Of a DNA stretch of 64,000 bases, positions 17,961 to 42,529 are shown piece after piece. The position numbers and the translations under genes are program-made. The DNA is from an uncultured cyanobacterium (GTDB lineage Bacteria > Cyanobacteriota > Cyanobacteriia > CACIAM-69d). The notes under the pieces were generated by a model. It saw nothing but the letters and a program-made list of their open reading frames with translations, was not told the origin of the DNA and made no database searches. How positions within the stretch are numbered: position 1 is the first letter of the stretch; every line of letters starts with the position of its first letter. The stretch spans positions 1 to 64,000 of the forward strand of contig CALGDE010000142.1 in the NCBI GenBank assembly GCA_937883785.1. The letters run 5' to 3'.

Positions 17961-18312
17961 TGCGCACAAGGGGCATTACCCTAGCCAGGCGCAGAACAGA
18001 GATCTCAATGAACGAAATTACCCTCCTACACGGGACACTTGCGACGGAGGGCAACACAGTGGTTTTCGAAGATTAATGCTTAGTAACGGTTCGTTTACTT
18101 TGTTGTTTGATCATATTGAAAACTAGCGAAATCTTGAGGCGACGATGGTGTAAAAACTGCCGTCGCCTTCGTTTATGAAAACTGTACTTAGCGCCAACCC
18201 AGTAAAATCGTCGTTCTTGATCTCTACATTTAGCGTTATATACGAGCATTTTGATTTGACGCCCTAGGCTATGATGTTGTCTCGTAATTCCAAATACTTC
18301 CTCGAGGTATCC
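17961..18312. other. Intergenic region upstream of nrdJ with a hairpin
   Basis: About 350 bases without a believable gene. A hairpin is formed by AGGCGACG (18137-18144) and CGTCGCCT (18161-18168). The B12-box of cobalamin riboswitches was looked for and not found. The nrdJ promoter is presumably here. Confidence 0.5.
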
Positions 18313-25366: not shown

Positions 25367-27397
25367 CTACTGCCCAACGGGAAAAGCATCCGTGAAAGAC
25401 CCTGAAGGTCTTACATTCCCACCACTCCCAGATTGCCGTGGTGATGGTCTTCCTCCAGATTGAGACCTACTAGATTCATTTCGTTGCCCAGAAGTGTTTG
25501 ATAATACCGGCTGTGGAGGGGGGGTGGGGGTTAAAGCTGCCACTCGGGTATTCATGGCGCTTCTTTGCTTTTGGTATTCCTCTAAGCGCTGAGTAGCTGT
25601 GGCGGCTTGAGTGGTGTTGGCAAAGGTGGCTGTGTTGCTGATGGGGGCGATCGCCTTTTCCCAGGCTGTTGCCGCTGCTTGATACTCGGGCAGTTTTTTG
25701 GTCTGGCTCGCTTTTTCCGTTGCCTTAGTAGCAGCCTTCGCCAATTCCTCAGCTTCCTTCAGCTTCGCCGTTGCGGTATTTTCAGCTTCCATTCGCTCTT
25801 GTAGTGCGGTTACCGTTTTTTCAGCGGCTGGGATTTGCTGTTGCGCCGCTTGATAGCCTGGTTGATTAGGGGAGAGCGCCTTTAAATCCATCAATACCTT
25901 TCGCGTATTGGCGAGGGCGTCTTCCAGCTCCTGAGCTGTCTTGGCTGCTGTTAAGGTCTGATTACCCTGTTCAATTGCTTGGGTTACGTCTTCTTGGGTT
26001 TGGGCAATTTTTTGCTGTTCTGATAGCTGTTGATACAGTGATCGCGCCCGTTTCAAAGCCTCCTGAGCCTGTTCATAATCCAGCGCCAACTCCGGCAAGG
26101 ATTCCAAATCAGCGATCGCCCCGTCTAGGCTTCCCACTGCCTGACCCAGCTCCTGGGCAGAGACCAAGGAGGACTGCTGATTTTTCACCGCTTCGACATT
26201 GGTGATCGCTGCGGTGTAAGTCTCATTCCACCCTTCTTCCCCAACACACCGCTGAAACTGGCGACATAGGGGTGTGTGTGGAATTGCCACCCAACTGCCT
26301 CCTAAAAGAATGGCAGCGGCACCCGCCACAGTTCCGCCAATTAAGGTTGCCGGAAGAGATTTCTTGGGGGTACTTGGGATAGGCGATCGCTGGGCAGGAG
26401 CAGTGTCTTCAGGAGGTGCACTGGACTCTGTTTTAGGCGTCTCCCCGATGATTTCTATCCCCGTTTCTGGAGGTTTTGCTTGTCGTGGGGACGTTTCAGA
26501 ACCTCTGGGCTCGTCTATCTTTGTCTTACGGGGGGCGTTCAGTTCCAACAGAATATTGCCTGCATTGCTATAGCGATCGCGGGGCCGATCCGCCACCATA
26601 CGATCCAAAATCTGCCCCAGTTCCTCACTCACCTCACAGTGCGATCGCCAATCCCAACTCAAATCTTGCTGATTAATCAACGCCTCGGGCTCTTGATTCG
26701 TCAACAGCACCAACGCCGTTGCTCCCAAACTATAAATATCGCTAGCAGGCCCCGGCTCAATGCCCCGCATCTGCTCCGGCGACGCATACCCCATCTTCCC
26801 AATCACCGACGCCTGGGCCTGGTCACTGCCCGTTGCTAACAGAGTGGTCATCTTCTGCTTCACCGCCCCAAAATCAATCAGCACCGGCTTCCCCCCATCC
26901 GCCGGTTTGATGATGTTATCGGGCGTAATATCCCGGTGATAGATCTTTTGACGGTGCAAACTTTCCAAAAGCGGGAGTAAATAGGACAACATATCCCGCA
27001 CCTCCGCCTCGTCACAGGGCACCCCCGCCGACTGATTTTCCTTAAACCGTTGCCAGTAGGTTTGTCCTTCCACGTACTGTTGCACTAAGCACAGCCGCCC
27101 TTCCCATTCAAACGAACCGTGGAGAAAAGGCACCTGGGGATTATCAATCTTCCCCAACACCGCCGACTCCCGCTGAAACAACTCCCGCGCCTTCTCCAAC
27201 GCCCGCTCATTTTGAGATGTGGAGGGACAAAATTCCTTAAGAACCCACTGTTGTTCCCCCCCCTGCTCGTCGGAGACCAAATAGGTGCGCCCAAACCCCC
27301 CACTGCCTAACGATCGCACCACCCGATAGCGTCCGTTCACAATAATCCCCGGCTGCAAAGGCGCTCCGGTCTGGTTAATGGATACTTGACTAGTCAC
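25367..27397 (-). CDS. Membrane-anchored Ser/Thr protein kinase
   Basis: A protein of about 676 residues from GTG 27397 (a TTG 63 bases upstream is open but the extension is not protein-like). The Hanks-type kinase domain includes LGSGGFGRTYLV (P-loop), VLKEF with the ATP-binding Lys, HRDITPDNII (catalytic loop, Thr where HRDLK kinases have Lys, common in cyanobacterial kinases), DFGAVK, and YASPEQ. A Pro/Ser linker precedes one TM (LPATLIGGTVAGAAAILLGG). The C-terminal 300 residues, presumably periplasmic, are Ala/Gln/Glu-rich coiled coil after a CRQFQRCVG pair of cysteines. It lies 300 bases from the COP23-protease genes, so it may phosphorylate targets such as the FHA-ABC protein at 40004. 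Confidence 0.92.
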   Translation of the reverse strand: MTSQVSINQTGAPLQPGIIVNGRYRVVRSLGSGGFGRTYLVSDEQGGEQQWVLKEFCPSTSQNERALEKARELFQRESAVLGKIDNPQVPFLHGSFEWEGRLCLVQQYVEGQTYWQRFKENQSAGVPCDEAEVRDMLSYLLPLLESLHRQKIYHRDITPDNIIKPADGGKPVLIDFGAVKQKMTTLLATGSDQAQASVIGKMGYASPEQMRGIEPGPASDIYSLGATALVLLTNQEPEALINQQDLSWDWRSHCEVSEELGQILDRMVADRPRDRYSNAGNILLELNAPRKTKIDEPRGSETSPRQAKPPETGIEIIGETPKTESSAPPEDTAPAQRSPIPSTPKKSLPATLIGGTVAGAAAILLGGSWVAIPHTPLCRQFQRCVGEEGWNETYTAAITNVEAVKNQQSSLVSAQELGQAVGSLDGAIADLESLPELALDYEQAQEALKRARSLYQQLSEQQKIAQTQEDVTQAIEQGNQTLTAAKTAQELEDALANTRKVLMDLKALSPNQPGYQAAQQQIPAAEKTVTALQERMEAENTATAKLKEAEELAKAATKATEKASQTKKLPEYQAAATAWEKAIAPISNTATFANTTQAATATQRLEEYQKQRSAMNTRVAALTPTPPPQPVLSNTSGQRNESSRSQSGGRPSPRQSGSGGNVRPSGSFTDAFPVGQ

Positions 27398-27696
27398 AAT
27401 CCCAACCCCTAAGCAGCGAACTAAATTAGCGTATCGGCGACCGCCCCCCTGGTCTCGCAACTCTGTAACCAGGTGCTACAGGATGCAGGATCCTACATCT
27501 CAATACCAATTAGACTACCCCGTATCATCAACAATCTTCCACATCCTAACCCTAGGATTTTTGTCAAAAAGCTAACGCCCCCCTGAACTGTGCCTAAGTT
27601 AGCTCCTATGTCAGAAGATACTGCTATTCCTTGCACCCCATCACATAATTAAGTTACATATATTGTTGAATACTGAATAAATAGCACCCTGTTTCC

Positions 27697-28290
27697 ATGC
27701 GCCATCTCCTCCAAGCCCTCCTTAGTATTGTAGTGACCTTGGGACTCGGCACCACCTTAGCCATTCCCACTCAGGCGGAATCCCCCCGAAGCTTCTCTTT
27801 CGTCTGTCAGCAATCCGCTGACGGTACCTATCGCACTATTGCTGGCACCCGCACAGCAGAATTTCCCGTTTTCGTCTGGAAGAGTCAGCATTTCTCCGAT
27901 GCAGGCTGGACCCCTGATCGTCGTTGTGCCGAAGTCTCTCAACGCCTTCAGCGCCTGGTAAGTCAAGGCAAGATGAACTATTTGCGAGGTAGCTACCTCA
28001 ACAATATGCCAGTGATCTGTGCCTTTGAAAATCGCAATCAATCTATTTGTGATAACGAAAACTTGGTTTTCACGTTACAGTACACTGCCGATATGGAGCA
28101 AAGCTTGACTGAGTATGCCATTGAGCGCATTAAGCAACTACAGCCCCTGACCAATAGCTCAAGCATTATTCCTTTGCAGGAAACTCCGGAAGACGCAGCA
28201 TATTTTAATTTCGCCGGGTATTTGGAACGGTTGCATGAAGATGCGGCACCGACGCCCCCCACCAATGACGATTTCTTCGGCGACAAATAA
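27697..28290 (+). CDS. COP23 domain protein
   Basis: A 197-residue secreted protein of the COP23 family (named after the 23-kDa circadian oscillating protein of Cyanothece-type cyanobacteria; function unknown). It has a signal peptide ending TQAES, then SFVCQQSADGTYRTIA, PVFVWKSQHFSDAGWTPDRRC, LRGSYLNNMPVICAF, and NENLVFTL, the conserved order. Four or so cysteines are positioned for disulfides. The kinase diverges upstream and proteases follow in the same direction, so it is probably part of their extracytoplasmic unit. Confidence 0.88.
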   Translation: MRHLLQALLSIVVTLGLGTTLAIPTQAESPRSFSFVCQQSADGTYRTIAGTRTAEFPVFVWKSQHFSDAGWTPDRRCAEVSQRLQRLVSQGKMNYLRGSYLNNMPVICAFENRNQSICDNENLVFTLQYTADMEQSLTEYAIERIKQLQPLTNSSSIIPLQETPEDAAYFNFAGYLERLHEDAAPTPPTNDDFFGDK

Positions 28291-28446
28291 GCGAACGCTG
28301 GCTGCGAACAGCGCGTGATGGGTTGCAGGACTACCCAAGCTTGACCAGCACTGGACGACTTTTCCGATGGTGCTGGTTTTGTAGTGTGAGAATCGGCGGG
28401 GGTGAGGCAAAGCTGTGGATGACAGTGATAAGTGGTGATTGATTGT

Positions 28447-30453
28447 ATGGCAGGCATTTTGGGCGTGAAACTTGGGCGATCGCCCGCAGTCAAAGTTTTA
28501 AGTAGTCTGTTGTTATGGAGCGTGATTGATGGGGGAGGGATTGCCTCCATTGTTGTCGCCCAGAGCCGCGCGGACCAAGATCATAGCCTTGAAACAGAGC
28601 TGACGGACTCACGATTAGAAACCCTCGAACAACAGCGTCAGCGAGTGACGTCATGCTCTAAGGTGCTGGAAGCGAATGTCGGGGAAGGAGACTCGAGCCG
28701 GGAAGAAACGTGGACCGTAGCGGAGAGGCAGGGGCGGCTGGTAACAGTGAAGGTATGGGCGGGGGCGGCGGGCAATTGGGGTTCGGGGATTGTGTTGGGA
28801 TATCGATACGGGGGGTACTTGGTGCTGACTAACGACCACGTGTTGGCGTTGGGGGAAGGCTATCAGGTGGAGACGGTTGATGGGGGAGTGCATTCGGCGG
28901 CTCGGGTGATGGCGGTGGATTTTGGTACTTACGATCTGGGGCTGGTATGGTTCCCTGGGACGGAGGGGCAATATCCGGTAGCGCAATTGCGATCACCGTC
29001 AGAGGGTGATGATGCTAATGGACAGACGGAACCGTTGGTAGTGGGGCAGAGAGTGACGGCGGCGGGATTTCCGTTTGATTTCAATACGGGCACCAGTTTG
29101 ACGGCGATCGCGAAACGGGCGGGGGCGGAGGCTGCTCGACAGTGTGGTGATGGGCTTTGGACCTTGGGGGGACGAGTATCCCGCTGGCTGGAGCGATCTC
29201 TATCGCGGGGGTATCGGTTGGGCTACACCAATTGGGTAGCCAAGGGCATGAGCGGTGGTCCTCTGTTGGATGAGGCAGGCTACGTGGTGGCGGTAAATGG
29301 CCGGCAAGCCTATCCGGCGTTCGGCAAGGTCCATGTGCTGGAGGATGGCTCATCACCGGATCCCCTGGAAGATGCCACCTTAGTACGCTCAAGTTGGGGG
29401 ATCCCTATTGAAGTGCCTTTAGGGATTATGGCGCGGCAGGGCTGGTCTATTGGAGTGGACCAGTCCACGGGGGCTGACCTTGAAGACGGACTGGGAAGGG
29501 TCAAACGGCAGAGGTATTTACTACCCCTAACCCTGGCAGTACCTGGATTTAGTGGACTTTGGTCCTCAGGATGGGACATTTCCGCAAACGATGAAACGAC
29601 CTTATTAATGGCGGGGGAAGTAACGGGTGGGTCGCTATGGGAGGTATTGGGTTGGCAGCCGGAAGATACCGTGGCGAGTGCCGAAGATGAAGTGCGAGTG
29701 CAACAGGAATGGCAGCATTTACGGTCGATAGTGTCGGTGTCGGTGGGGGAGTCTCTTTTTCTGGGCGTCCTCACAGGGCGCGAACCCCTAGACACTGGCG
29801 GGTGGCGATATACAGTGTTAATTCCGTCATCAAGCTCAACTCTGAGTCCTAGGACAGAATCGCAGGACTCTGAGGAGAAATCGGTGTGGGTACGCTCGCC
29901 GGACGGGAAATTACAGCAGGGTATTGAGGTTAGATCAGAGACAGTGGTGATCGCTGTGCAATTCGATAGTCCAATCACCTACCATGGGGCATCTGGAAGG
30001 TTGCTAAACTACGAAGCATTAGCAGAATCCTCGGGGCAGGATAAATCACGATGGGCAGCTTTACCAATCCTGTGGGACGACACAGAAAGTTTTTCCAACG
30101 CTCCTCCTGTTGCCCAGTTTCTTCCTACTTTGCTAAATGCAGATTGGCAATGGCAACACAGCTCAAGCCGCTCTCTGTCTGGGGGACAAAAGACACGATT
30201 TTATGGGCAATTTATTCCTCATAGAGAGATCTTGCCATCACGCTGGTTTCCATGGGGGCTTGTGAGAATGGTACGGCATCGGGGAATTACTACTACTTTT
30301 GCCACGAATTACCTTAAGCCTGATAAGCTCTCCCGAGAACATAGTCCTTTAATAAGAGTTCCATTTCCCCTATTCCAAGATCATCAATGGTTAGGTTGGG
30401 CGGCGCCAGTGTCGGAAAATGCTGCTGCTGTTCGAGCAGAATCGTTTCCTTAG
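28447..30453 (+). CDS. Trypsin-like serine protease, exported
   Basis: A 668-residue protein from ATG 28447 (a GTG pair lies 15 bases upstream). An N-terminal hydrophobic segment ending IVVAQS is a signal sequence. The S1 protease domain (about 100-310) shows GSGIVLGYRYGGYLVLTNDHVL (catalytic His), FGTYDLGLVWF (catalytic Asp) and AKGMSGGPLLD (catalytic Ser). The remaining 350 residues have no family I recognise. The same three catalytic motifs recur in the next gene, so the pair probably arose by duplication followed by C-terminal divergence. Substrates unknown. Confidence 0.85.
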   Translation: MAGILGVKLGRSPAVKVLSSLLLWSVIDGGGIASIVVAQSRADQDHSLETELTDSRLETLEQQRQRVTSCSKVLEANVGEGDSSREETWTVAERQGRLVTVKVWAGAAGNWGSGIVLGYRYGGYLVLTNDHVLALGEGYQVETVDGGVHSAARVMAVDFGTYDLGLVWFPGTEGQYPVAQLRSPSEGDDANGQTEPLVVGQRVTAAGFPFDFNTGTSLTAIAKRAGAEAARQCGDGLWTLGGRVSRWLERSLSRGYRLGYTNWVAKGMSGGPLLDEAGYVVAVNGRQAYPAFGKVHVLEDGSSPDPLEDATLVRSSWGIPIEVPLGIMARQGWSIGVDQSTGADLEDGLGRVKRQRYLLPLTLAVPGFSGLWSSGWDISANDETTLLMAGEVTGGSLWEVLGWQPEDTVASAEDEVRVQQEWQHLRSIVSVSVGESLFLGVLTGREPLDTGGWRYTVLIPSSSSTLSPRTESQDSEEKSVWVRSPDGKLQQGIEVRSETVVIAVQFDSPITYHGASGRLLNYEALAESSGQDKSRWAALPILWDDTESFSNAPPVAQFLPTLLNADWQWQHSSSRSLSGGQKTRFYGQFIPHREILPSRWFPWGLVRMVRHRGITTTFATNYLKPDKLSREHSPLIRVPFPLFQDHQWLGWAAPVSENAAAVRAESFP

Positions 30454-30605
30454 ATTGAGGTTCAATTCCCTTGACTCTCTCACTTCTCCCCTTGACAACA
30501 TTTACTGAGGAATTGAGGGATTGAAGCTTGTCATGGGTTTCAGGGGAAACGATAATCGTTAACAATTTATACGCTACGGTGGCGATCGCAGAAATGGTAG
30601 GGCAA

Positions 30606-33251
30606 ATGAAGGGCATTAGCCCATGGTCGAATTTTATAAATCCCGCCTTGACGGGGGCAACGGCGGCCATGGTGATGGTGGTTAATCCATCTTCCGCTCA
30701 GGCATTGAGTGAGCCAGAGGTTGCAAAAATTGCCCAAGAAGTGACGGTACTGATCGCCCCTAGAAATGAAGAAAATCGTTATGGCTCTGGTATCTTGCTG
30801 GCGAAAGAAGGGGACATCTATTACGTTCTGACTGCCCATCATGTGGTGAAAGCGCCAGAGCAGTACGAAGCGCAAACCGCCGACGGGGCGATCCATGCCC
30901 TCGAACGGGGATCAATTCGTAAGCTGCCAGGGGTGGACCTAGCGATCGCCCAATTTTCCAGCAGTAGAACCTACCGTACGGTGGAGCTGGAGGAAACGAT
31001 GCCGCCTATTGGTTCTCCCATGTTCGTGGGCGGCTATCCCTTGCCTGACCGTACAGGAACTGAGGCACGGTTATTTACCTATACCGGAGGACGGGTCGCG
31101 CGAATTCGGTCGGCGGTGACTGATAGGAACCAGGGGTATTTGCTGGGGTACGACAGTTTGACGCAGCAAGGGATGAGTGGTGGTCCTGTGCTGAATCAAG
31201 ATGGAAGATTGATTGCGATTCACGGTCTATCGGAGGATCGCGGGAATGCACAACGGGACGGTCTCTTTAAGTATGGTATTCCGGTGTCGGTGTTTTTGGA
31301 TCGGGTGCCTAAGGTGTATTTCGCTCAAGGGGCAGAGTCCCTACTAGCGAGGCAGTACAACCAGGCGATCGCCGCATTTCGCCAGGCGTTGAGATTCGCC
31401 CCCAGGGACGGCAATACCCATGTGTTTTTAGCCTACGCTTATTTTGCGAAGGGGGATTTTCGGAACACTCTGGCGTCTGCTGAAGTTGCCATTAATTCTG
31501 GGGGAACGCCCGCTTTGCGGGGATACCGGGTGCGTGGTGCTGCCTACTTGATGGAAGGCAATACCCGGCGAGCTTTGGAGGATTTGGATAATGCCGTTCG
31601 GCTCGGTGGGAACGCGATTGACTACGGTTTGCGGGGTCTTGCCTATGCTCGCGCGGGCAATATCCTTAACGGTAATAGTGATGCCAATGCGGCGGTAAAA
31701 GAGGCTGCCAACAGCCCTCTCCCTTACCTCATCATTGGTGCTGTACGCGAAATCGCCAATGACTCTCTGGGGAGAGACACAGCACGACAGCGGGCGTCTG
31801 AACTACTAGCACAAGGACAAACTATCAGTCCTGACCAAACAGCGCTTGCACGGGGGCTCGGCATTGATATCCCGAGCGATGTCGTTGTTACACCACCACC
31901 ACCACCGCCACCATGCGAGAACGGCGCCCAGCGAGTGAATGGAGAATGCTCACTGCCGAATGATCCGCCGCCACAGCCTCCAACGGAAAATCTGAGTCCT
32001 TCTCCATTTGCGAATCATCCGGCCGTGGGGGCGATCGCCCGAGCTATCCAAAGCCAACAATCCCACCGTCAACGCTCTACTCGCTTTAACAGTCGTATCA
32101 CTCCGCCTGGAACCCAGGGTTATAACTTCGCGATTCGGACCAGCACCCGTGCCACTTACTATTATGGAATTCCCCGCCCCGCAAACGGCCAAGCTTCTTT
32201 CGTGGGGGCATTATTCCTGGAGGGATCGGCGGGAAATCGAGACACCGATCCACCAATGTTTTCCCTTATTTGCTCGTCCGAAAGTGGCGTGCGCCCAGCA
32301 GACCCCCGGTACACGCCGCCGGAGTCCTTACGCTGTGCCCCAAATACATTTGCTGTGCAGCTCAACGGCGAACCAGTAGGCGGGAGCACGGGGGGGAGCA
32401 CGGGCTCTGTTTCTCCGCCGAGCATGGAGCCCGTGCGCACATCACCGGCTACTCAGCCACCGGTGCGGCCTCAGCCTCCTGTGATTCGCTCTCCTCAAGG
32501 CGCGCGCGCGACCGGAAACGATCCGGCGATCACCGTTCTGCAGCAAATGATGGATGTGCAAACCCGGCATCGGGGCGACAATACCCGCTTCTTGAGGTTC
32601 CCTGGGGCTATGCAGCGACGCCCTTATAATTTACGCTTGTCCAACACCCACGAGTTTAGAATTAGGACAACTACGCGAGCAGCCTACCATTACGCTGTGC
32701 CCAGGTCAGGCAATGACCGTGGGGCCGTTGCGGCAATATTCTTGGAGGCAAACGCTCAAAACGAGGCTCGTAACCCCCAACTGCGCTGGATGATTTGCCA
32801 GGCTGACACCCCCGGTCAAGCGCGGGAAGCGGATCCCAGCTATCGTGGTGATAATGACTTCCGCTGCGGGACGGGAACTCGATTAGTGGCGTCTAATTTC
32901 GCTCAGGTCGCAACAAGTACAGGCGATCGTCCTGAGGACTTAGCCAATGCTAGCCCTATTCAATTTCCCAACGTGTGCGCCTCCTTCACTAACCTGCCCC
33001 ATCAAACCGCTGCCTTGGATCGCCTCTACCAACAAGTGCCCGAGGAAACTTGGATTGCTTTTGGTCAACAATGGCGGACCCAGATTGTTCAACGAGCCCT
33101 GCGGGAACCGGTATCCATTACTAATGCCTGTCGATTCTATAGAAACAAACCCAATGAACGGCGGGCTTTGCTGTGGCTCCAGGGGACGCTGGTGAAAGAC
33201 TATGGTCCTGCTCTTCGTGAATTTGCACAACGATGGCGACAGCAGCGTTAG
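30606..33251 (+). CDS. Trypsin-like protease fused to TPRs and two Pilin_GH-like domains
   Basis: From ATG 30606 (881 residues; an earlier TTG at 30528 is open but gives a poor signal sequence). After a signal ending SSAQA comes an S1 protease: GSGILLAKEGDIYYVLTAHHVV (His 79), PGVDLAIAQF (Asp 111), QQGMSGGPVLNQDG (Ser 191). TPR-type repeats occupy about 235-400, then a Pro-rich hinge (VTPPPPPPP). Two repeats follow, about 480-600 and 650-790, each with TRF, a YNF/FRIRTxTRAxYxY strand pair, a VGA/VAAIFLE strand, a LICSSE or MICQAD, and a late Cys: this order resembles the cyanobacterial type IV pilin G/H (Pilin_GH) domain. The fusion is, to my knowledge, unusual. Confidence 0.82.
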   Translation: MKGISPWSNFINPALTGATAAMVMVVNPSSAQALSEPEVAKIAQEVTVLIAPRNEENRYGSGILLAKEGDIYYVLTAHHVVKAPEQYEAQTADGAIHALERGSIRKLPGVDLAIAQFSSSRTYRTVELEETMPPIGSPMFVGGYPLPDRTGTEARLFTYTGGRVARIRSAVTDRNQGYLLGYDSLTQQGMSGGPVLNQDGRLIAIHGLSEDRGNAQRDGLFKYGIPVSVFLDRVPKVYFAQGAESLLARQYNQAIAAFRQALRFAPRDGNTHVFLAYAYFAKGDFRNTLASAEVAINSGGTPALRGYRVRGAAYLMEGNTRRALEDLDNAVRLGGNAIDYGLRGLAYARAGNILNGNSDANAAVKEAANSPLPYLIIGAVREIANDSLGRDTARQRASELLAQGQTISPDQTALARGLGIDIPSDVVVTPPPPPPPCENGAQRVNGECSLPNDPPPQPPTENLSPSPFANHPAVGAIARAIQSQQSHRQRSTRFNSRITPPGTQGYNFAIRTSTRATYYYGIPRPANGQASFVGALFLEGSAGNRDTDPPMFSLICSSESGVRPADPRYTPPESLRCAPNTFAVQLNGEPVGGSTGGSTGSVSPPSMEPVRTSPATQPPVRPQPPVIRSPQGARATGNDPAITVLQQMMDVQTRHRGDNTRFLRFPGAMQRRPYNLRLSNTHEFRIRTTTRAAYHYAVPRSGNDRGAVAAIFLEANAQNEARNPQLRWMICQADTPGQAREADPSYRGDNDFRCGTGTRLVASNFAQVATSTGDRPEDLANASPIQFPNVCASFTNLPHQTAALDRLYQQVPEETWIAFGQQWRTQIVQRALREPVSITNACRFYRNKPNERRALLWLQGTLVKDYGPALREFAQRWRQQR

Positions 33252-33382: not shown

Positions 33383-36300
33383 CTAGGTGCCCAGTAACTT
33401 AGCCTTAGCGGCTTGGAACTCCTCCTCGCTTAAAAGCCCTTCTCGCTTGAGCTCTGCCAGTTCCTTGAGCTTAGCGATGATATTCACGTCGCGATCACCC
33501 CCGACCGCTGGTGCGGGTTCTGGGGCACGGACTGGCACGGGTTCTGGAACAGGTTCGGTCTCAACTACGGGCTTTGGCGTTGAGATAAGCGTGGCGGCTG
33601 GCGCTTCGGAGGGAGTTTCCGTACTAAGTTTGTAATTACGGATCGTGTTGCGAATAACGTCTGCTTCCCGACGATAATCAGGGCTGTCTTTGCCTCCCGT
33701 TTTTGCCAACTGCGATGCGCGGATATCGAGGTAAGCCAATAATTTGGCACCGAGGGCTTGTTTCTCTTCTTGGGTTTCTGCCCCTTCCAGAATCAGGTCT
33801 ACCTGCCGTTGGATTTCAGCGCGATCGCCCTGACAAGCCCGCACTTGCAGAATTTGCACCGCCTCATCCCAGCCTGAAGCAATATCAATGCCATTGGTGC
33901 CGATTTCGTCCGTTTGGTCATAGCGGATGGTGCGCTCATCGGTTGCTTGGTTGCGATCTTCTCGCAGCACTTCCAACGCCCGCGCCAAAATCACCAACTC
34001 AAATACCCGCTTGTCTTCGGGAAATAAATCCCAAAACGGTGGCTCTTTTTGCAGATGTACGGGGATGGGCATATCGCGACTTTCCCCTTTTAGCTGAGCT
34101 CGCTTTGCCTCAATGCTTTCCCCTAGCCAATCTTGATAAGACTGTTGCAGCTCCCGCATTCCATTGACGCAGCGCAGGGAAAAACCACCGGTTTCTTGCA
34201 CGAACACCATCCGATGCCGCTCTGGGATTCCTAAGGGTTTGATATTATCTTCATTCATGCTCTCCAAGTCACGCAACACCCGCAGCATTTTTTGCGCCGC
34301 CGGATCTGCTGTTTTTGCCCCCCCCAACAGCGCCACGTTGATATTCGTCGACGGTGTGAATCCGGCGTCATCTCCTGACATAACAGCTTTTGAGAGCTCA
34401 ATCAGTGGCTGGGATTTGTTGTAGGCAATGCGGATTTGATTCTGGATTTGCTGTTCGTCGTTGTAGGTTTTGTACAGGCGATCGCACGCCGCCAACTCCG
34501 AATACATCCGCGCACTTTCCGGTGCGTTTAATACTTCCACTCGAGATCGATCGCGAATTAACTCCCGCAAATCTTCCTCCTTCACCTCCGGAATCGCCGT
34601 CATATCCCACAGACGCATCACCTCATCAGAGCGCCGAGTATCCTTCCACATGGGACTCGCTGCCTTCAAAATCTCCTCAGAGATCACGCTACATTTCGCA
34701 TCAAGCCCCACCTCCCGGCGCGACTTGCTGCTTTCCCGCGTCCCCGCCCACTGTTCCAGCAGGTCATCATAGAGGGAGTTGAGTTCCTGGCGATCAAATA
34801 ACTTGATGCCGTTCACCTCTAATGCGTCAGCACTGTCTGCCATCCGGTCCGCCTCACTGCTGAAGGCGTCGCGCATGGTTTGAACCCGCTGCATAAACTG
34901 GTTGTAGCGCCGCTCCAAATCATTCAGATGCTCTTCCAGCCGCGCCACCACTTCCAGCCCCAGCGATCGCGCCTTCCGCTGCACCAGCGCACAGAATGAT
35001 CCCTCAATGCCCAACAGCGCCGTATCCGCCATTTCCTCCATCTTCGACTGCTTCGTCAGCCCATACTTATCACGGAATTCCACCATTTCCTGCATGGATT
35101 CCTCATATTGCTGACGCCGTGCCTTTTCGTTAATTTCCCAAGGCTTTTCCTGTTCCCGGCGGAATTTTTCCGTGGCATCGCGAAATACCTGACGGGTTAC
35201 CCGCAAAAACTGGTCGGCAAACTGGGGACCCCGGCTGCGATCGCTCAAAATGGCATACAGCTCCGCCTCCAAAGCCTTCCGCCCTTCCGTAATCAACTGG
35301 TTGCGATTCTCGTACATCCGCACCAAATAATCCCCATGGGCCCGCTCATCGTTGCCCAAATCCCGCAAATGGTCCGACTGATAATCCTGTACCTTTTCCG
35401 ACAAGTAATTGTTAAACCGCAGAATCTTGCCCTTCTCCGGTCCTGTGAAACCAGCAACTCCTTGCTGAGTACATTCCAATAAATTCTCATTGGAAATCTC
35501 ATTACGAATGCCATTGAGCCACTCCGCAATCACCGCCGTATAGGGGCGATCCTTCGCCGCCAACAAACTGGACAACATCTTGCGATCCGTCAGCCCCATG
35601 CGATCCAATAAATCCCCTCGCACCAAATCCAACATATTCGGCGGCAAGGGGGCTTTCTCATTCAGCCACCATCCCGCTAAATCTGCCGACAACCGATAAG
35701 CCATTGAGGTGCGAATTTGAGCAATGGGAATTTCCACCGTGGATAATCCAAAGCTCATAAAGTTTTTGGGATAGCCTCGCCCGCCAGGATCTGCCTGAGC
35801 CCAAGCACTTTTAATGTTGTCTCGAATAGACCGTTTATGGGGCGCAAACTCTGAGGTTAGATCTAAGAAAATATGCTGGGCGATCGCCTCCCGAACCTGA
35901 TCCAATTTAAAGGAAACCTGCTCGTTTTTCGTTCCTACCAAATAGGTAAACGTAAATGGCGGCTTACGGTTAACAATCTCCGTTGAAACCCCTGCACTAA
36001 ATGCCTCTTGATAAGTGGTGCGACCATCGGAGAAATAACTTAGCTCCATCATGGCTGCATAGCCATTGGAAAGAACGCGATCACCCACATTAATCCCAGC
36101 AAAAGCATTAGGGGTAGGCACCACTGCCGTCACCGAAGCAGACCCTTCTCCTTTGGTCCAATCCTGCACCCCGTAACCCAAATCAATTAACATTCCACTA
36201 CCAGTTCCCCCCGACAGAGAACCGGTCACAAAAACGTTGATTTGGTTTCCCGACACCTTTGCCCCATAGGTGTCTTGCATGTAGGTTTCGCGACCTCGAA

Positions 36301-36730
36301 CGCCACTTAAAATTCCTTTGAACTTGTCGCGGATGGAGTGGTAGTTAACAAAATAAGCAAAACGGCCACAGGCTCGGATTTGTCCCGCCCCCGCTTCCAA
36401 AGAAGTTAGATTTTTCTGCAACTCGTTAGGAAACCACCGGTCAATCCACGGGTAGTTGTCCATATTTTCAACGATATTTTGGGCTTCTTGCCCGGTCACC
36501 CGGGCCCAATGGCGCTCGTTATCCTTAAAAACCGGTCCTGCTGCCTCAGGGTTGCTGACTTTATAGTCCTTGTCTGTGTCAATCCATAGGAAACCAAGGA
36601 TCGGGAACTTATCCAAACCGCCATAAGTTTCTACGACTAGCCGCCGTACCCGCGACAACACCTCAGCTCCCGTTCCCCCGATTCCAATCAGAATTGTCGG
36701 AACCATACTTTTCTCTTCAACTGCGGCCAT
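33383..36730 (-). CDS. Tubulin-like GTPase (Tubulin_2 type) with C-terminal SHOCT motif
   Basis: A 1115-residue protein. The N-terminal region carries ILIGIGGTGAEVL (13-25), an FtsZ/tubulin-type nucleotide-binding loop, LWIDTDKDYK, and the signature FVTGSLSGGTGSGM (167-180), equivalent to the GGGTGTG box. This is the pattern of the PF13809 tubulin-like family of bacteria, longer than FtsZ. A mostly helical body of 700 residues follows with coiled coils around 530-650. The last 35 residues (IIAKLKELAELKREGLLSEEEF) form a SHOCT motif. No signal peptide, so cytoplasmic. It precedes a membrane vWA gene and a receptor-like gene on the same strand, as the last gene of the three. Filament formation is likely but unproven. 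Confidence 0.85.
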   Translation of the reverse strand: MAAVEEKSMVPTILIGIGGTGAEVLSRVRRLVVETYGGLDKFPILGFLWIDTDKDYKVSNPEAAGPVFKDNERHWARVTGQEAQNIVENMDNYPWIDRWFPNELQKNLTSLEAGAGQIRACGRFAYFVNYHSIRDKFKGILSGVRGRETYMQDTYGAKVSGNQINVFVTGSLSGGTGSGMLIDLGYGVQDWTKGEGSASVTAVVPTPNAFAGINVGDRVLSNGYAAMMELSYFSDGRTTYQEAFSAGVSTEIVNRKPPFTFTYLVGTKNEQVSFKLDQVREAIAQHIFLDLTSEFAPHKRSIRDNIKSAWAQADPGGRGYPKNFMSFGLSTVEIPIAQIRTSMAYRLSADLAGWWLNEKAPLPPNMLDLVRGDLLDRMGLTDRKMLSSLLAAKDRPYTAVIAEWLNGIRNEISNENLLECTQQGVAGFTGPEKGKILRFNNYLSEKVQDYQSDHLRDLGNDERAHGDYLVRMYENRNQLITEGRKALEAELYAILSDRSRGPQFADQFLRVTRQVFRDATEKFRREQEKPWEINEKARRQQYEESMQEMVEFRDKYGLTKQSKMEEMADTALLGIEGSFCALVQRKARSLGLEVVARLEEHLNDLERRYNQFMQRVQTMRDAFSSEADRMADSADALEVNGIKLFDRQELNSLYDDLLEQWAGTRESSKSRREVGLDAKCSVISEEILKAASPMWKDTRRSDEVMRLWDMTAIPEVKEEDLRELIRDRSRVEVLNAPESARMYSELAACDRLYKTYNDEQQIQNQIRIAYNKSQPLIELSKAVMSGDDAGFTPSTNINVALLGGAKTADPAAQKMLRVLRDLESMNEDNIKPLGIPERHRMVFVQETGGFSLRCVNGMRELQQSYQDWLGESIEAKRAQLKGESRDMPIPVHLQKEPPFWDLFPEDKRVFELVILARALEVLREDRNQATDERTIRYDQTDEIGTNGIDIASGWDEAVQILQVRACQGDRAEIQRQVDLILEGAETQEEKQALGAKLLAYLDIRASQLAKTGGKDSPDYRREADVIRNTIRNYKLSTETPSEAPAATLISTPKPVVETEPVPEPVPVRAPEPAPAVGGDRDVNIIAKLKELAELKREGLLSEEEFQAAKAKLLGT

Positions 36731-36862
36731 GGTCGGATTTCCTCAAAGGTGATAAGTGCGACAAAAACAACAAACGTTTCGGTCTGGATATTCCGTAGGA
36801 GACTAAAAAAGCACGGGGATGACCGCCATCGACGAACCCAAATCCCCAGCGATTTTGGGTAA

Positions 36863-37891
36863 TCAGCAAGCCTTAAAGAAAGGAAGGTTCAAAAATTGAA
36901 GAATTTTCCAAACAATACCTGGAGTGGCAGCAGTCCAGAACAGGGCGTAGCCCACAGAGGTTTTGCCCGCCATGTCAAAACGCATGTCAAATAGGCGTTG
37001 CAACATTCGGTCAATGGGCAATATCAAGGCCCACATCAGAAAAACCCATGCGAGTCCCAGCCAAATCACAACCCAGTTAAGATTGCTGTTGATCTTTTGG
37101 AAAAACTCATTGGAAATTAAGTTGGACAGTTCATTGACTAGTCCGAAAGTATAGGCTCCTCCTGCATCCTGCACCGCATTTTTAAAATCGGTGAATTCTT
37201 CCCCCACCGTAATAAAGTTCAGCTTAATGCCGCTGGCCATGATCTGGGTTAATAACTCTTTATCCAACGCCGCATTGCCGTCTGTGACCACCATTAATTC
37301 CTTGCATCCTTCCTCGAATCCTTTCAACGCTTCGGAGCCTTCGCGGATAGCACGATTGATATCCGTTTCGCTAGGGGATACCTGTTGGGCAACGGAAGTG
37401 GAAGATGAAGGGTCTACCGCTTGGGCGATCGCCCCTTTAAGTTCCTCCGCGGAAGTGCTGAACCCCTCGCTCAAAGGCACCACCAATCCCCCAAATCCCA
37501 TGACTTGAACCTGGTTGGGGCTAGGCAGCTGACTATTTTTATCGATATAGCTCTTTACTGCATCAATAGCCGCCTCTGAAATGCTGCCAGGTTCGTTCAG
37601 CTGCGAATCGTAGGTGCTACTGCTTAAATCCAACGATAAGACCACCGCCACATTGTTGGGATTGCCCCACTGGAACAGGTAAAACAACAACGCTGCAATG
37701 AGACAGACAACAAAGCCAATAAACGGCTTTTGGAACAATCCATACTGATAAAATGGACGATTGGCATCACGCACAGGGGAGCACCTAACGGGAATGATTA
37801 GAATACGGGGCAAGAAAATCAATAAGCGGCGGATAAATACTGTACGTAGGGGGGCGTGGGCTGAAAAGCACCGGATCGCTTTCTCAAGCAC
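36863..37891 (-). CDS. Membrane vWA domain protein
   Basis: A 342-residue protein (start GTG 37891; a later GTG at 37774 before RDANRPFYQYG would fit the hydrophobic start better). TM1 is at about 56-75. The von Willebrand A domain spans 80-265 with a complete MIDAS: DLSSS (88-92), Thr 176 in the SETDINR segment, and Asp 204 in VVTDGNA. Two more TMs lie at about 272-292 and 313-333. The domain between TM1 and TM2 should face the periplasm, where a metal-dependent ligand binds. It is 20 bases downstream of the receptor-like gene and 130 upstream of the tubulin-like gene, which together look like an operon. Confidence 0.85.
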   Translation of the reverse strand: MLEKAIRCFSAHAPLRTVFIRRLLIFLPRILIIPVRCSPVRDANRPFYQYGLFQKPFIGFVVCLIAALLFYLFQWGNPNNVAVVLSLDLSSSTYDSQLNEPGSISEAAIDAVKSYIDKNSQLPSPNQVQVMGFGGLVVPLSEGFSTSAEELKGAIAQAVDPSSSTSVAQQVSPSETDINRAIREGSEALKGFEEGCKELMVVTDGNAALDKELLTQIMASGIKLNFITVGEEFTDFKNAVQDAGGAYTFGLVNELSNLISNEFFQKINSNLNWVVIWLGLAWVFLMWALILPIDRMLQRLFDMRFDMAGKTSVGYALFWTAATPGIVWKILQFLNLPFFKAC

Positions 37892-37911
37892 CGCTGCCCA
37901 CTGTTTCCCCT

Positions 37912-39570
37912 TTAGGGGGAGGATTGGAATAGAGGATCGAATCGATATTTAGCGCCCTCGGGAATGCCTAGGGGAGCCTGACCGTCGGACTTCACCACCC
38001 GTACCAGGGGAAGACGGTCCAGGGTATCCGACGCCGTTGCTGCACCAAAGATCGCTTCACCACCCTGCAAAGAGGTAAGAGCTGCTTGGCGGCTAGCACC
38101 GTTTTTTAGGGCAGACATAAGCCCCTTGGTGGCGTCATAGGCAATACTGGTGCGCCAGCTAATACGTCCTTTCCAGCCGGGATCGCTGCCCACCACGAAG
38201 GGCTTATCGGAGTCGGCGCTCCAGGGCACTGCCAGCACTAGCCCGTCCATAGCAGCCTCTCCCTGTAAAAGCACTCGGGAGTTGTAGAGTTCATCCGCCC
38301 CCAGCATAAGCATTGGAGTGCCTAAAGCCTGATTGGCTTGCCCAATGGCGATCGCCTCCGGCATCCGCTCCCCGCTCAACGCCAGCAAGATTATCTTGCT
38401 CCCACCAGCCTGGGCATCCGCCAAGGCTGCCGCTGGATTAAACCCAGGCTTCGCTACATCAATACCTTGTGCGAACACCGTTCCATTCCGCGAGGCATTA
38501 GCGGCTTCGTAGGCATCCTTGATTTTTTGACCGTAGGCATTGTCAGAGTTGTAAAACACCACCGTACGCTCACGGGGCAACGTCTTAGACACATACTCTG
38601 CCAAGGACTGCCCGACACCGTTGACGTACTCAGATAGGGTTTGGGTGCTTCCCGGGGGAACAAGCTTAATGGTGGACGGTCCCTGACGTTGACTATCCGT
38701 AACTTCTGTCGTCAGGGGGGTTAGGGCTGGTAGGCCTCCCTGTTTATAAATATCCAACGCGACCTGGGTTGTCGCATCCACACCGTGCCCCACCACACCG
38801 GAAACCTGTTGGGCATCCACCAAGACTTTCGCTAAGCCAGGAATCATACCGGAATTCACGGCGTCCACAATAACCACTTCCATCAACTCCTGAGAATTGG
38901 CAGGGTTTTGGTTATACTCTTCCTGGTACTGAGCCACGCCCCGTAGAATTTCCTGGGCAATTTCTGGGGCTGGGGTGACTGGTGCCACTACGGCAATGGT
39001 GATGGGTTTGCCCTGTTTACAGGCGCGGGCGTTGTTGTAATAGATGCGGCTCTCGGGGTCGTTGCGGTCTGCGTCTTTGGCATTGGTAAATTCGGCGATC
39101 GCCTTATCCCAAGCCTGTGCCTGAAGCGCCACCGTGCCGTTCGCTTTATCGGACGACACCCGATTGGTCAATAGCACTTTCTCCCCCTGGCTAATGCGCT
39201 TGGCTTGGCTAATGTCGGTTGTGGACGCTGCCACCGGCGCACACATGGGTCCCGATACTGCAGGAGTGGTGGAAACATTACCAGATGCTCCTGCACTACT
39301 GGTATTCGTGGGTTCCACGGTGACGGACTCTTCAGGACCCGGCTCCTCCGGCTGCTGAGTCATTATGAAGGCTGCAGTTCCACCCCCAAGTACTGCAAGC
39401 ACTCCCAGACCCCCCAAAATTGCTTTCATTAGTGAACTATCCTTGGTTTTCTCTCCGCCGCTATCAGAACGGGGCTTGCCACACACATCGCAGGTTGAGT
39501 ACTTATTCACATGCGGATCATGAGAGCCCGGGGGATCTCCTGTACAAGTCCATTCTTTCGATTTAGCCAT
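37912..39570 (-). CDS. Membrane-anchored periplasmic-binding-type receptor with zinc-ribbon-like head
   Basis: A 552-residue protein. Residues 1-35 include Cys 9, His 17, His 20 and CDVC (27-30), a possible zinc-binding knuckle in the cytoplasm. One TM is at about 49-70. A Pro/Ser/Thr linker and a TPR-like helical pair (LQAQAWDKAIAEFTNAKDAD) follow, then a type I periplasmic-binding domain (Peripla_BP_6/branched-chain amino acid receptor type, about 190-545) with ITIAVVAPVTP, VVGHGVDATTQVALDIY, VVFYNSDNAYGQKIKDAY and SIAYDATKG. No permease or ATPase of the branched-chain type is adjacent, so it looks like a sensor. It is the first gene of the receptor-vWA-tubulin transcript. Confidence 0.82.
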   Translation of the reverse strand: MAKSKEWTCTGDPPGSHDPHVNKYSTCDVCGKPRSDSGGEKTKDSSLMKAILGGLGVLAVLGGGTAAFIMTQQPEEPGPEESVTVEPTNTSSAGASGNVSTTPAVSGPMCAPVAASTTDISQAKRISQGEKVLLTNRVSSDKANGTVALQAQAWDKAIAEFTNAKDADRNDPESRIYYNNARACKQGKPITIAVVAPVTPAPEIAQEILRGVAQYQEEYNQNPANSQELMEVVIVDAVNSGMIPGLAKVLVDAQQVSGVVGHGVDATTQVALDIYKQGGLPALTPLTTEVTDSQRQGPSTIKLVPPGSTQTLSEYVNGVGQSLAEYVSKTLPRERTVVFYNSDNAYGQKIKDAYEAANASRNGTVFAQGIDVAKPGFNPAAALADAQAGGSKIILLALSGERMPEAIAIGQANQALGTPMLMLGADELYNSRVLLQGEAAMDGLVLAVPWSADSDKPFVVGSDPGWKGRISWRTSIAYDATKGLMSALKNGASRQAALTSLQGGEAIFGAATASDTLDRLPLVRVVKSDGQAPLGIPEGAKYRFDPLFQSSP

Positions 39571-40003
39571 AGCACTCTACTCTCACACGCACTTAAGGGA
39601 TAATCTTCAAACTGCCCCCATAAAAAGTTACTTTAATTTGTCAATATCAGGTAGCACTGTATGACAACAAACTCAGATAAAAAGAAATTCCGGATAACTC
39701 GGTAAAAAAGGAGACACTCATTGAGCCCCATATTGCATCAGGCAATGTGTCTGCTTGATACTTTTTCAGTATCCCCGATGAGGGGGAGCAAATGTCTTTA
39801 GATAGTGATTGATTGCTTTTTCCCGTCCATAGTCAGAACTTTGCCCTCTAGACAAGTTACTAGGGGTAAAGTTAGAAACTTTGTGGGGGACCATTTCCGT
39901 TAGTTTTGCCGTTCCTCCTGTTGAGGGGACATTGTTCTCTTAGATTGACTCTGAGATCTAATGCTGCTGATGTCCCGCGTTTTCAAAGTCGCTTTCGTAA
40001 CCC
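39571..40003. other. Divergent intergenic region of the receptor and FHA-ABC genes
   Basis: About 430 bases, AT-rich, holding the divergent promoters for the receptor-vWA-tubulin genes and the FHA-ABC transporter gene. No conserved operator was recognised. The divergent arrangement lets one site control both transcripts. Confidence 0.6.
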
Positions 40004-42529
40004 ATGCCTGAAACTGTTTTAGGAATTCCCGACCCTTATCTTTACGTCAAAGGTCCCAATGGTATTAGTCAGCGGTTTCCTTTGAAAAAGCCCCTTCATG
40101 CCCTGGGTCGGGATGTGGGGCAAGTGGATTTGGTGGTGGATGAGAGCTGGACTGTCATGTCCAACTACCATGCGGAGTTAATTCGGCGGGAAGATGGTAT
40201 TTACTGGATTCATGACGGCAACACTCGTACAGGAAAAACCAGTACCAATGGGTTGCTATACCAACATCGGCGTATTACTAATCGTGAAGGTCATCCCCTA
40301 GAAAACGGTCACGAAATCACCATTGGTCAGAATCCTGAAACCCAGGTGAAGCTAACTTACTTGGATCCCTCCGTTGTGGATATTTCCCAGGGCAATGTGA
40401 CTCAGCTCACTCAGAAGGGAGTGGGTTTAGATCGGGGAACGGTGGTGCTGGGACGAGAAGAGTCGGAGACGGGACGAGGGCTGTTGTTGGACTCGCCGAT
40501 GGTGTCGCGATGCCATGCGGTGGTGGAGCAATCGGGAGCGGCTTATGTATTGAGCGATCGCAGTACCAATGGCACCTTTGTGGATGGGAAGAAGGTCTCC
40601 GGTAGTGTGCCGTTGCGGGATGGGGCAATCATTAAGATTGGTCCTTTTACTTTGGTGCGGCGGGGTGATCGCCTAGATCTGCAAGATCTAGGCGATTCCA
40701 TTCGGCTAGATGCAGAGAATCTTAGATTAAACGGCAGCAATCCGGTGTGGTTTTGGGAAGGAGATAAGTATGGACGATTAGCGGGTAATCCCACCACTGC
40801 TGGGGGGCTGGGACGACTGTCCACATTCCCCCGCATCCAGGACGTGACTTTACCCATTGAGCCGGGACAGCTAATTGCCCTGGTGGGGGGCAGTGGCGCC
40901 GGTAAGTCTAGTTTGATGAAAGCGCTGTTGGGAATTGAGGCGTTGCAAGGGGGGCAGGTACGTCTGAATGGCAGCGACTTGCGGGAAAACTTTAATCAGT
41001 ATCGCCATCAAATTGGCTACGTCCCTCAGGATGATATTTTGCATGGGGATCTGACGGTCCTAGAGGCGTTATCCTACATTGCTCGGCTGCGGTTGCCTTC
41101 CGACGGGGATATTGCTCGGCGGGTGGGCAAGGTGCTGAAGGATGTGGATATGCAGCATAAGGAAGATGATCCCATCCGCACCCTTAGTGGTGGGCAGCGT
41201 AAGCGGGTGAGCATTGCGGCGGAGTTGTTGGCGGACCCGAAGCTATTTTTCCTGGATGAGCCGACATCAGGGCTAGATCCGGGATTAGATAAAAAAATGA
41301 TGCAGCTTCTGCAGGGGTTGGCGCGGGAAGGGCGCACGGTGGTGTTGGTAACTCATGCTACGGCGAACATTGATTTGTGTGATCGCGTTACATTCCTGGG
41401 AAGGGAGGGGCGTTTGTGCTATTTCGGTCCTCCTCAAGGGGTCTTCGACTTTTTCGAGGTGACCTCTGGGGATTTTGCCGACGTGTATATCCGCCTGGAG
41501 CCCGGCACCCAGGATGAAACGGAACAAGCGGTGGCGTCATGGCGCGATCAGTTTAACGCAAGTCAGTTCTACCGCAATTACGTTGTAGCGTCTTTTACTC
41601 AAGAAACCGGATTTAACAGCACAATTAAACCGAAGTCCGCGCGTGCTGCCCCGTCGGCAATGGGAGGAGCTCAGAGTAGTGAATTAGAGAAAGTACAGCG
41701 ATCGCCCTTTCGCCAATGGCAAACCCTGTGTCAGCGGTATTTAGCGTTGATTTCGCGAGACAAAGCGGCACTCGTGTACAAACTCCTTACTGCCCCGGCG
41801 GCTATTATTCTGACGTTATGGGTGATTAATGATGTGAACTGTTTGGTAGGAAGTAGTGATCCAGATCCAGCGGCATCAGGTACTGCCATCAAAATCTTGT
41901 TTATGCTCACCTGCGCCTCCCTTTGGGTAGGCACTTCCGGTTCTATTGGGGAAATTGTCAAAGAAAATGCTATTTACATCCGGGAGCGATTGGTCAATTT
42001 AGGATTATTTCCTTACCTGTGGTCAAAGTGGAGCGTCCTTGGAGGATTGGCGGTTATTCAAAGCGCCACGATGGTAATTGCCCTGCTTCTGGTCAACAGC
42101 CCTGAATCAGAACTGTTCCCTTGGCTGTTAGGTGTCTTTCTTACAACTACTTTGACTCTGGCTAGCAGCGTTAGTTTAGGGTTACTGGTCTCAACAATTT
42201 GTCGAAGTGCGGCGGCGGCTACCAGCTTTTTACCTTTGATTATGCTGCCCCAAATTATTGGAGCAGGGGTTCTGTTTAAGATGGAAGGAGTTGCGGAATA
42301 TTTCTCCTGGTTAATGGTGGGGCGCTGGTCCATTGGAGCCTATGGGATCCTGGCTGATGTAAATAGCTTGCTGCCAGAAACATTGCCTGATGGCACGGTG
42401 ACGGAGCTACCGGTAATCTACGATCCAACTTGGGAGAATTTGGGGTGGAATTGGGGGGCGCTGGTAATTCACGCTGGGATTTATGCACTGATTACGGCGA
42501 TTGTGAAAAAGCGCACCGATGTAATTTGA
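40004..42529 (+). CDS. Double-FHA ABCG-like ABC transporter
   Basis: An 841-residue cytoplasmic-to-membrane protein. Two forkhead-associated domains occupy about 15-120 and 145-220 (second: VLGREESE, MVSRCHAVVEQ, DRSTNGTFVDGKKV), so it should bind phosphothreonine partners. The ATPase domain (about 265-480) has GGSGAGKS (295-302), YVPQDD (Q-loop), LSGGQRKRVS (394-403) and LFFLDEPTSGLDP. A C-terminal ABC2-type membrane domain (about 590-841) has six or so TMs. This layout is an ABCG-type half transporter exporting an unknown substrate. It is divergent from the receptor-vWA-tubulin genes, and the kinase at 25367 is a candidate phospho-donor. Confidence 0.92.
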   Translation: MPETVLGIPDPYLYVKGPNGISQRFPLKKPLHALGRDVGQVDLVVDESWTVMSNYHAELIRREDGIYWIHDGNTRTGKTSTNGLLYQHRRITNREGHPLENGHEITIGQNPETQVKLTYLDPSVVDISQGNVTQLTQKGVGLDRGTVVLGREESETGRGLLLDSPMVSRCHAVVEQSGAAYVLSDRSTNGTFVDGKKVSGSVPLRDGAIIKIGPFTLVRRGDRLDLQDLGDSIRLDAENLRLNGSNPVWFWEGDKYGRLAGNPTTAGGLGRLSTFPRIQDVTLPIEPGQLIALVGGSGAGKSSLMKALLGIEALQGGQVRLNGSDLRENFNQYRHQIGYVPQDDILHGDLTVLEALSYIARLRLPSDGDIARRVGKVLKDVDMQHKEDDPIRTLSGGQRKRVSIAAELLADPKLFFLDEPTSGLDPGLDKKMMQLLQGLAREGRTVVLVTHATANIDLCDRVTFLGREGRLCYFGPPQGVFDFFEVTSGDFADVYIRLEPGTQDETEQAVASWRDQFNASQFYRNYVVASFTQETGFNSTIKPKSARAAPSAMGGAQSSELEKVQRSPFRQWQTLCQRYLALISRDKAALVYKLLTAPAAIILTLWVINDVNCLVGSSDPDPAASGTAIKILFMLTCASLWVGTSGSIGEIVKENAIYIRERLVNLGLFPYLWSKWSVLGGLAVIQSATMVIALLLVNSPESELFPWLLGVFLTTTLTLASSVSLGLLVSTICRSAAAATSFLPLIMLPQIIGAGVLFKMEGVAEYFSWLMVGRWSIGAYGILADVNSLLPETLPDGTVTELPVIYDPTWENLGWNWGALVIHAGIYALITAIVKKRTDVI

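Follow-up and report, generated by a model that had tools for sequence, protein, structure and literature searches.

The closest described relatives of the locus analysed here are operons of the FtsZl1 (Tubulin_2) family, GTPases reported together with vWA proteins, kinases, a P-loop GTPase and OmpA proteins in genomes that include those of cyanobacteria (PMC2875224). A membrane remodelling role was proposed for the family (Makarova and Koonin, 2010; PMC2875224). A reviewer of that work noted periplasmic binding proteins (of the branched-chain amino acid type in Arthrospira) and a PilA-like gene, and proposed transport or signalling instead; the authors set the binding-protein link aside as sporadic (PMC2875224). 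Because T6-H7 elements are unrecognisable in FtsZl1 proteins (PMC2875224), polymerisation of such a GTPase is not assured. Other tubulin-vWA systems have been classed as conflict systems in which GAP1 and DO-GTPases take part (Kaur et al., 2020; PMC7159879). Our literature search returned only a predicted role for FtsZl1, with no demonstrated function since 2010, and no prior study of the receptor described below.

The window (the whole stretch of 64,000 nucleotides analysed, from contig CALGDE010000142.1 of an uncultured cyanobacterium) shares with the FtsZl1/vWA operons the GTPase family, a vWA partner, nearby kinases and membrane-associated partners (PMC2875224). It differs from them in having a finger-TM receptor, near-exact co-distribution, swapped sensors and a dispensable vWA domain. 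A sequence-only reading had proposed four of its genes as a candidate new envelope system; wholly new it is not, as FtsZl1 with vWA proteins and kinases was already described in 2010 (PMC2875224). What appears to be undescribed is the receptor as an obligate GTPase partner and, likewise, its exchangeable sensor, while the GTPase family and its linkage to vWA proteins and kinases were already known. With the GAP1/DO-GTPase systems (PMC7159879), the window has in common a tubulin-superfamily protein and an extracellular vWA membrane protein. Its core differs in containing a predicted ligand-binding receptor and neither of those two families: no GAP1 or DO-GTPase was found among the window proteins scanned (Pfam), and the core genes had no PADLOC match.

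The GTPase and its neighbourhood in the window

Table 1. Coordinates of the core and accessory features in the window.
Feature	Position	Strand	Basis
Accessory Ser/Thr protein kinase (TM helix; helical extracytoplasmic part)	25367..27460	-	PF00069 1.7e-28
COP23-family secreted protein, accessory	27697..28290	+	PF14218 2e-30
Trypsin-like protease, accessory	28432..30453	+	PF13365 9e-17
Trypsin-TPR protease with weak Pilin_GH match, accessory	30528..33251	+	PF13365 5e-20; Pilin_GH 9e-6, below cut-off
Tubulin_2 (FtsZl1) GTPase, 1115 aa	33383..36730	-	PF13809; predicted model vs CetZ/FtsZ
Three-TM membrane scaffold with putative periplasmic vWA domain, 303 aa, GTG start 37774	36863..37774	-	MIDAS; start by homology
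Receptor, 552 aa: zinc finger, TM helix, short helical (TPR-like) stretch, predicted periplasmic type-I binding-protein domain	37912..39570	-	
Receptor zinc-finger module (WxCxG...H...N...CxxCG), diagnostic part	39460..39558	-	finger profile A5 match, E=9e-11
Divergent intergenic region between receptor and ABC gene	39571..40003	.	no sigma-70-like match
Double-FHA ABCG-type transporter, 841 aa, facultative associate	40004..42529	+	Pfam; co-occurrence; linkage

All four open reading frames of the sequence-only reading are present with the strands and boundaries it gave them (Table 1). The minus-strand unit runs receptor, vWA protein, Tubulin_2 GTPase, and the double-FHA ABCG-type gene is divergent from it. 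One start was revised: the vWA protein had been begun at 37891, 20 bases from the receptor, yet its homologues begin about 47 residues ahead of the MIDAS motif, so that we place the start at the GTG and obtain gaps of 137 bases (receptor-vWA) and 132 bases (vWA-GTPase). The 430-base divergent region taken to be a shared control region does exist, but no sigma-70-like promoter was found in it.

The window GTPase is a member of the Tubulin_2/FtsZl1 family. Its Pfam match to PF13809 (E=6e-97) is well above cut-off, the GTP-binding loop of the superfamily is present, and a linked vWA gene with invariant MIDAS residues adjoins it. Nucleotide binding, on which the earlier proposal had been staked, is consistent with intact loops: SGGTGSG and GGTG are invariant in an alignment of 42 homologues. 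The protein comprises an N-terminal tubulin fold, a long helical middle and a C-terminal SHOCT region, the last with a Pfam match slightly below cut-off. Its predicted model (mean pLDDT 81) has the helical character of the family, with long helices at 501-636 and a mostly helical C-terminal part; the best solved matches are CetZ, FtsZ and tubulins, with modest scores. By our reading of the model, the T7 acid pair appears to be kept only in part across GTPase clades. The P-loop GTPase that often partners the FtsZl1 family was not found among the window neighbours (Pfam), a difference that leaves membership standing because this partner is frequent in the family rather than required. In most homologues (e.g., L036) a zinc ribbon replaces SHOCT at the C-terminus.

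A second, distant cyanobacterial Tubulin_2 clade (GTPase-II) has the operon order vWA, GTPase, ZorA/MotA-like, ZorB/MotB-like, with PADLOC matches to ZorA1 (6e-17) and ZorB (6e-7). We observed it at loci L170, L171, L175, L177, L180, L183, L184, L207, L208, L209, L023 and L032, and such proximity of a tubulin relative to motor genes of the Zorya type merits separate study. Among the window proteins, ZorA/ZorB motor genes were not seen (Pfam, PADLOC).

The GTPase and the finger-TM receptor occur together across genomes

PF13809 was found in 75 of 386 cyanobacterial genomes, taken as a single draw. The window subfamily, GTPase-I, was delimited by its own profile, which 24 genomes match at 1000 bits or more, the next at about 530 and the remainder at 276 or below. 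Receptors were counted by a 44-residue profile of the zinc finger; whole-receptor matches below about 470 bits, which were mostly generic binding proteins without a finger, were left uncounted. The finger was present in all 24 GTPase-I genomes and in 1 of the 362 others (Fisher 3e-37), and the vWA/scaffold protein in 16 of the 24 and none of the 362 (9e-23); these tests treat genomes that are not independent, and genus-level tests were also run, giving for the finger 15/15 genera with GTPase-I against 1/128 others (2e-19). Six genera (g24, g46, g48, g53, g63, g71) are mixed: finger and GTPase-I are both present in some of their species and both absent from others. Computationally, then, the GTPase is paired one-to-one with a finger-TM receptor, and most genomes add the three-TM scaffold, usually with its vWA domain. 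We regard this GTPase-receptor(-scaffold) association as near certain, and the counts support the reviewer's binding-protein link, for cyanobacteria.

The association is also visible in gene order. A genome-contig scan yielded 80 further loci, and the receptor-vWA-GTPase order recurs in many genera. Upstream sequence of 4 kb or more is available for 70 GTPase-I loci, near-duplicates among them: in 37, receptor and vWA genes precede the GTPase on its own strand, and in 45 a receptor adjoins it on one side or the other. The identical four-gene order occurs in a genome of the same family (L022). Chance clustering of the four genes is ruled out by this recurrence, in L022 and in many genera, together with the co-distribution. 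The idea that receptor, vWA protein and GTPase evolved as a single unit, which a neighbourhood conserved nowhere else would have undermined, is therefore upheld.

The genes are kept together in genomes even where they are not neighbours. In the Thermosynechococcus-like G034, G047 and G282 (so labelled from their relative L066 in the GTPase tree) and in G315, GTPase, receptor and vWA genes are dispersed yet all retained; in G034 they lie at 1.05, 1.33 and 2.38 Mb, respectively. GTPase and receptor occur without a detectable scaffold in seven Microcystis-group genomes and in G269, where relaxing the search threshold recovered none either. The sole genome with a finger and no GTPase-I (G106) carries a divergent finger receptor (L178:5764-7401) and only a distant GTPase of the GTPase-II clade; this receptor is possibly a relic or a case of partner switching. 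One GTPase-I gene (L035) comes from a contig assigned to Candidatus Gracilibacteria; as the GTPase groups with Microcystis in the tree, the contig is probably cyanobacterial and misbinned.

These patterns bear on whether the core is a conflict or defence system akin to the tubulin-vWA-GTPase systems, in which the receptor would sense an invader and GTPase assembly would trigger the response. The patchy distribution, with presence and absence within genera, would suit such a role, as would the related tubulin-vWA associations of firmicutes and actinobacteria (PMC7159879) and the ZorA/ZorB-like neighbours of the distant GTPase-II clade. However, the system is mostly single copy per genome, and its genes persist even when scattered, as those of defence cassettes do not. 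The neighbours searched included neither a GAP1 nor a DO-GTPase family, and GTPase, vWA protein and receptor have no PADLOC match. We consider a defence function very unlikely.

Receptor and scaffold as a candidate sensing module

The N-terminal finger of the receptor has seven invariant residues (W, C, G, H, N, C, C). On its own, the window receptor had no Pfam match at 0.01; its homologues match Peripla_BP_6, up to 7e-38, and its predicted structure resembles the binding proteins LivK/LivJ (Foldseek, E about 1e-13), that is, the type-I binding-protein fold of LIV-type importers. We judged the topology of receptor and scaffold by the positive-inside rule rather than with a dedicated predictor, and the charges flanking the TM helix place the finger putatively in the cytoplasm and the binding domain in the periplasm. 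The predicted outer domain would thus share its fold with LivK/LivJ and with the Venus-flytrap domains of class C GPCRs. It differs from both in being TM-anchored to a probable cytoplasmic finger, in low identity and in having a GTPase partner in place of a permease or G protein.

This likeness raises the prospect of an ordinary transport cluster, in which the binding protein feeds the adjacent ABC transporter and the GTPase is unrelated. Apart from the LivK-like fold and the position of the ABC gene, the evidence runs the other way. The neighbouring ABC protein is ABCG/exporter-like and missing beside most receptors, the cognate Liv permease of a LIV-type importer is absent, the receptor begins with a zinc finger and TM anchor and not with a plain export signal, and its distribution tracks the GTPase and no transporter. 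An importer cluster is contradicted by these features, and we hold the transport reading to be extremely improbable.

The same finger is joined to several outer modules: Peripla_BP_6 (LivK-like), PBP_like_2 (PstS-like), Phosphonate-bd, Ppx-GppA and a weak DcrB/PsbP-like domain, and one phosphonate-type receptor additionally carries a nuclease-like domain. Ppx-GppA and coiled-coil outer modules are not classical small-molecule binders. In the GTPase tree (a quick tree with some long branches), the module classes are interleaved. A sister clade, GTPase-I', is about 31% identical to GTPase-I, and its GTPase gene is followed directly by a related ribbon-TM-binding-protein receptor, bearing LivK-like, PstS-like or NMT1+OmpA modules. 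A constant inner part with an exchanged outer part would be the signature of a sensor family.

Methyl-accepting chemotaxis proteins (MCPs) and sensor kinases are receptors that combine interchangeable periplasmic sensors with a constant cytoplasmic part. The likeness is one of analogy only, as here a small zinc finger forms the constant part and a tubulin-superfamily GTPase acts as partner. As for the ligand, most GTPase-I receptors have Asp (window D265) at what we take to be the carboxylate-binding serine site of LivJ, and the acid of the presumed amine site is retained (window D426), with LivJ numbering as we assume it. These pocket residues give only a hint that the ligand may be other than a plain amino acid. 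Tandem GTPase-I duplicates occur with two finger proteins in one locus (L179:5615-12537 and 17435-19504); the outer parts of these proteins are coiled coils weakly similar to kinase extracytoplasmic regions, which may reflect coiled-coil bias.

The vWA match of the window scaffold is sub-threshold (VWA_3, 0.013; Pfam), and its MIDAS residues D49, S51, S53 and D165 do not vary among 16 homologues. One TM helix precedes the vWA domain and two follow it, and the charge distribution suggests a periplasmic position for it. No fewer than three lineages (L055/L058/L196/L206, L074 and L186) lack the vWA domain yet retain the TM segments and PLD loop (e.g., L055:9479-9856); the membrane part therefore has the more conserved function. 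The sequence-only reading had allowed the vWA protein as ligand binder. As an essential sensor or binder the domain is weakened by these natural variants, in which it is deleted and the TM scaffold stays.

Membrane remodelling, the role proposed in 2010, would have FtsZl1, vWA and other membrane proteins bend or divide membranes, with the receptor as regulator or cargo adaptor. Family and gene context are those of the 2010 description, every partner is membrane-associated, the tubulin superfamily in general forms filaments, and some receptors carry OmpA domains. Swapping of ligand modules and loss of the vWA domain nevertheless suit sensing better than a purely mechanical role, and we therefore consider remodelling unlikely as an alternative to sensing; it could itself be the output of a sensing system.

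On balance, we lean slightly towards a cyanobacterial trans-envelope sensing system built on a Tubulin_2 (FtsZl1) GTPase. The periplasmic module of the receptor would bind a small molecule, binding would alter receptor and scaffold, and through the cytoplasmic finger and the loops of the scaffold the GTPase would be recruited to the inner membrane or switched there, so that its GTP-dependent assembly would track the outside signal. That an external ligand may signal to a filament was part of the sequence-only reading, and the swapping of sensor modules argues for it. More tentatively, and somewhat short of probable, this could be a class of transmembrane signalling in which a conserved cytoplasmic zinc finger, fitted with one or another periplasmic sensor, steers GTP-dependent assembly of a tubulin-superfamily protein via the three-TM scaffold; if so, a bacterial tubulin relative would be directly regulated by outside ligands. 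The direction of signalling and the output are what we infer, and the output is the least certain: it might pass through the neighbouring Ser/Thr kinase, the FHA-ABC exporter and secreted proteases, and possibly involve pili, taxis or envelope export. A co-distributed partner, swapped modules and a small, separately expressible finger make the dispute between remodelling and signalling or transport testable.

Accessory genes and their possible outputs

The ABC protein has two FHA domains, ABC_tran and ABC2_membrane, and its closest models are ABCG-type. Scored as present at E<=1e-150, it occurs in 21/24 GTPase-I genomes against 30/92 genomes without GTPase-I (15/53 PF13809-negative and 15/39 with other PF13809 proteins). 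In an automatic count with a lax score, it lies near the GTPase in the window and in L022, L037, L043, L049, L072 and L076; in G265 the two are about 11 kb apart on the same contig. As an obligate part it was rejected, given the 30 genomes that carry it without GTPase-I and its absence from most loci, although it is still enriched.

Many kinases are present in cyanobacteria, and kinases are frequent neighbours of GTPase loci, with one of the same family as the window kinase beside the GTPase in L079, L022 and other loci. The window kinase had been given as 25367-27397; the longest start extends it (Table 1). COP23 genes number 0 to 9 per genome and lie near the core in G000, G232, G225, G330 and G244, and kinase, COP23 and trypsin-TPR genes recur near it. 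FHA-ABC, COP23 and kinases are enriched associates outside the core. The earlier inclusion of FHA-ABC and kinase in the system thus holds for enriched neighbours and fails for obligatory components.

Some neighbours point towards a system specific to type IV pilus or taxis control. In Thermosynechococcus-like genomes, the GTPase gene has a CheA/MCP/CheW/CheY operon on one side and a Pilin_GH pilin on the other; L039 carries a pilin from that cluster close to its GTPase, and the window trypsin-TPR protein has its weak Pilin_GH match. As this amounts to one clade and weak matches, and other loci are without such neighbours, we find this specific role quite unlikely.

The order in that clade is a CheY/CheW/MCP/CheA operon, then the GTPase, then a Pilin_GH/N_methyl pilin gene (L019:6506-16736, also L020 and L066). 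Another lead on the output comes from Crocosphaera, where ferritin-like and FTR1-type iron permease genes (identified by reading only) are directly upstream of the receptor, and such genes are also beside the receptor in a Microcystis-group genome (loci L040, L041, L044, L045 and L190). Elsewhere in the window, a 772-aa open reading frame at 18271-20589 has only partial class II ribonucleotide reductase matches and may be split or interrupted.
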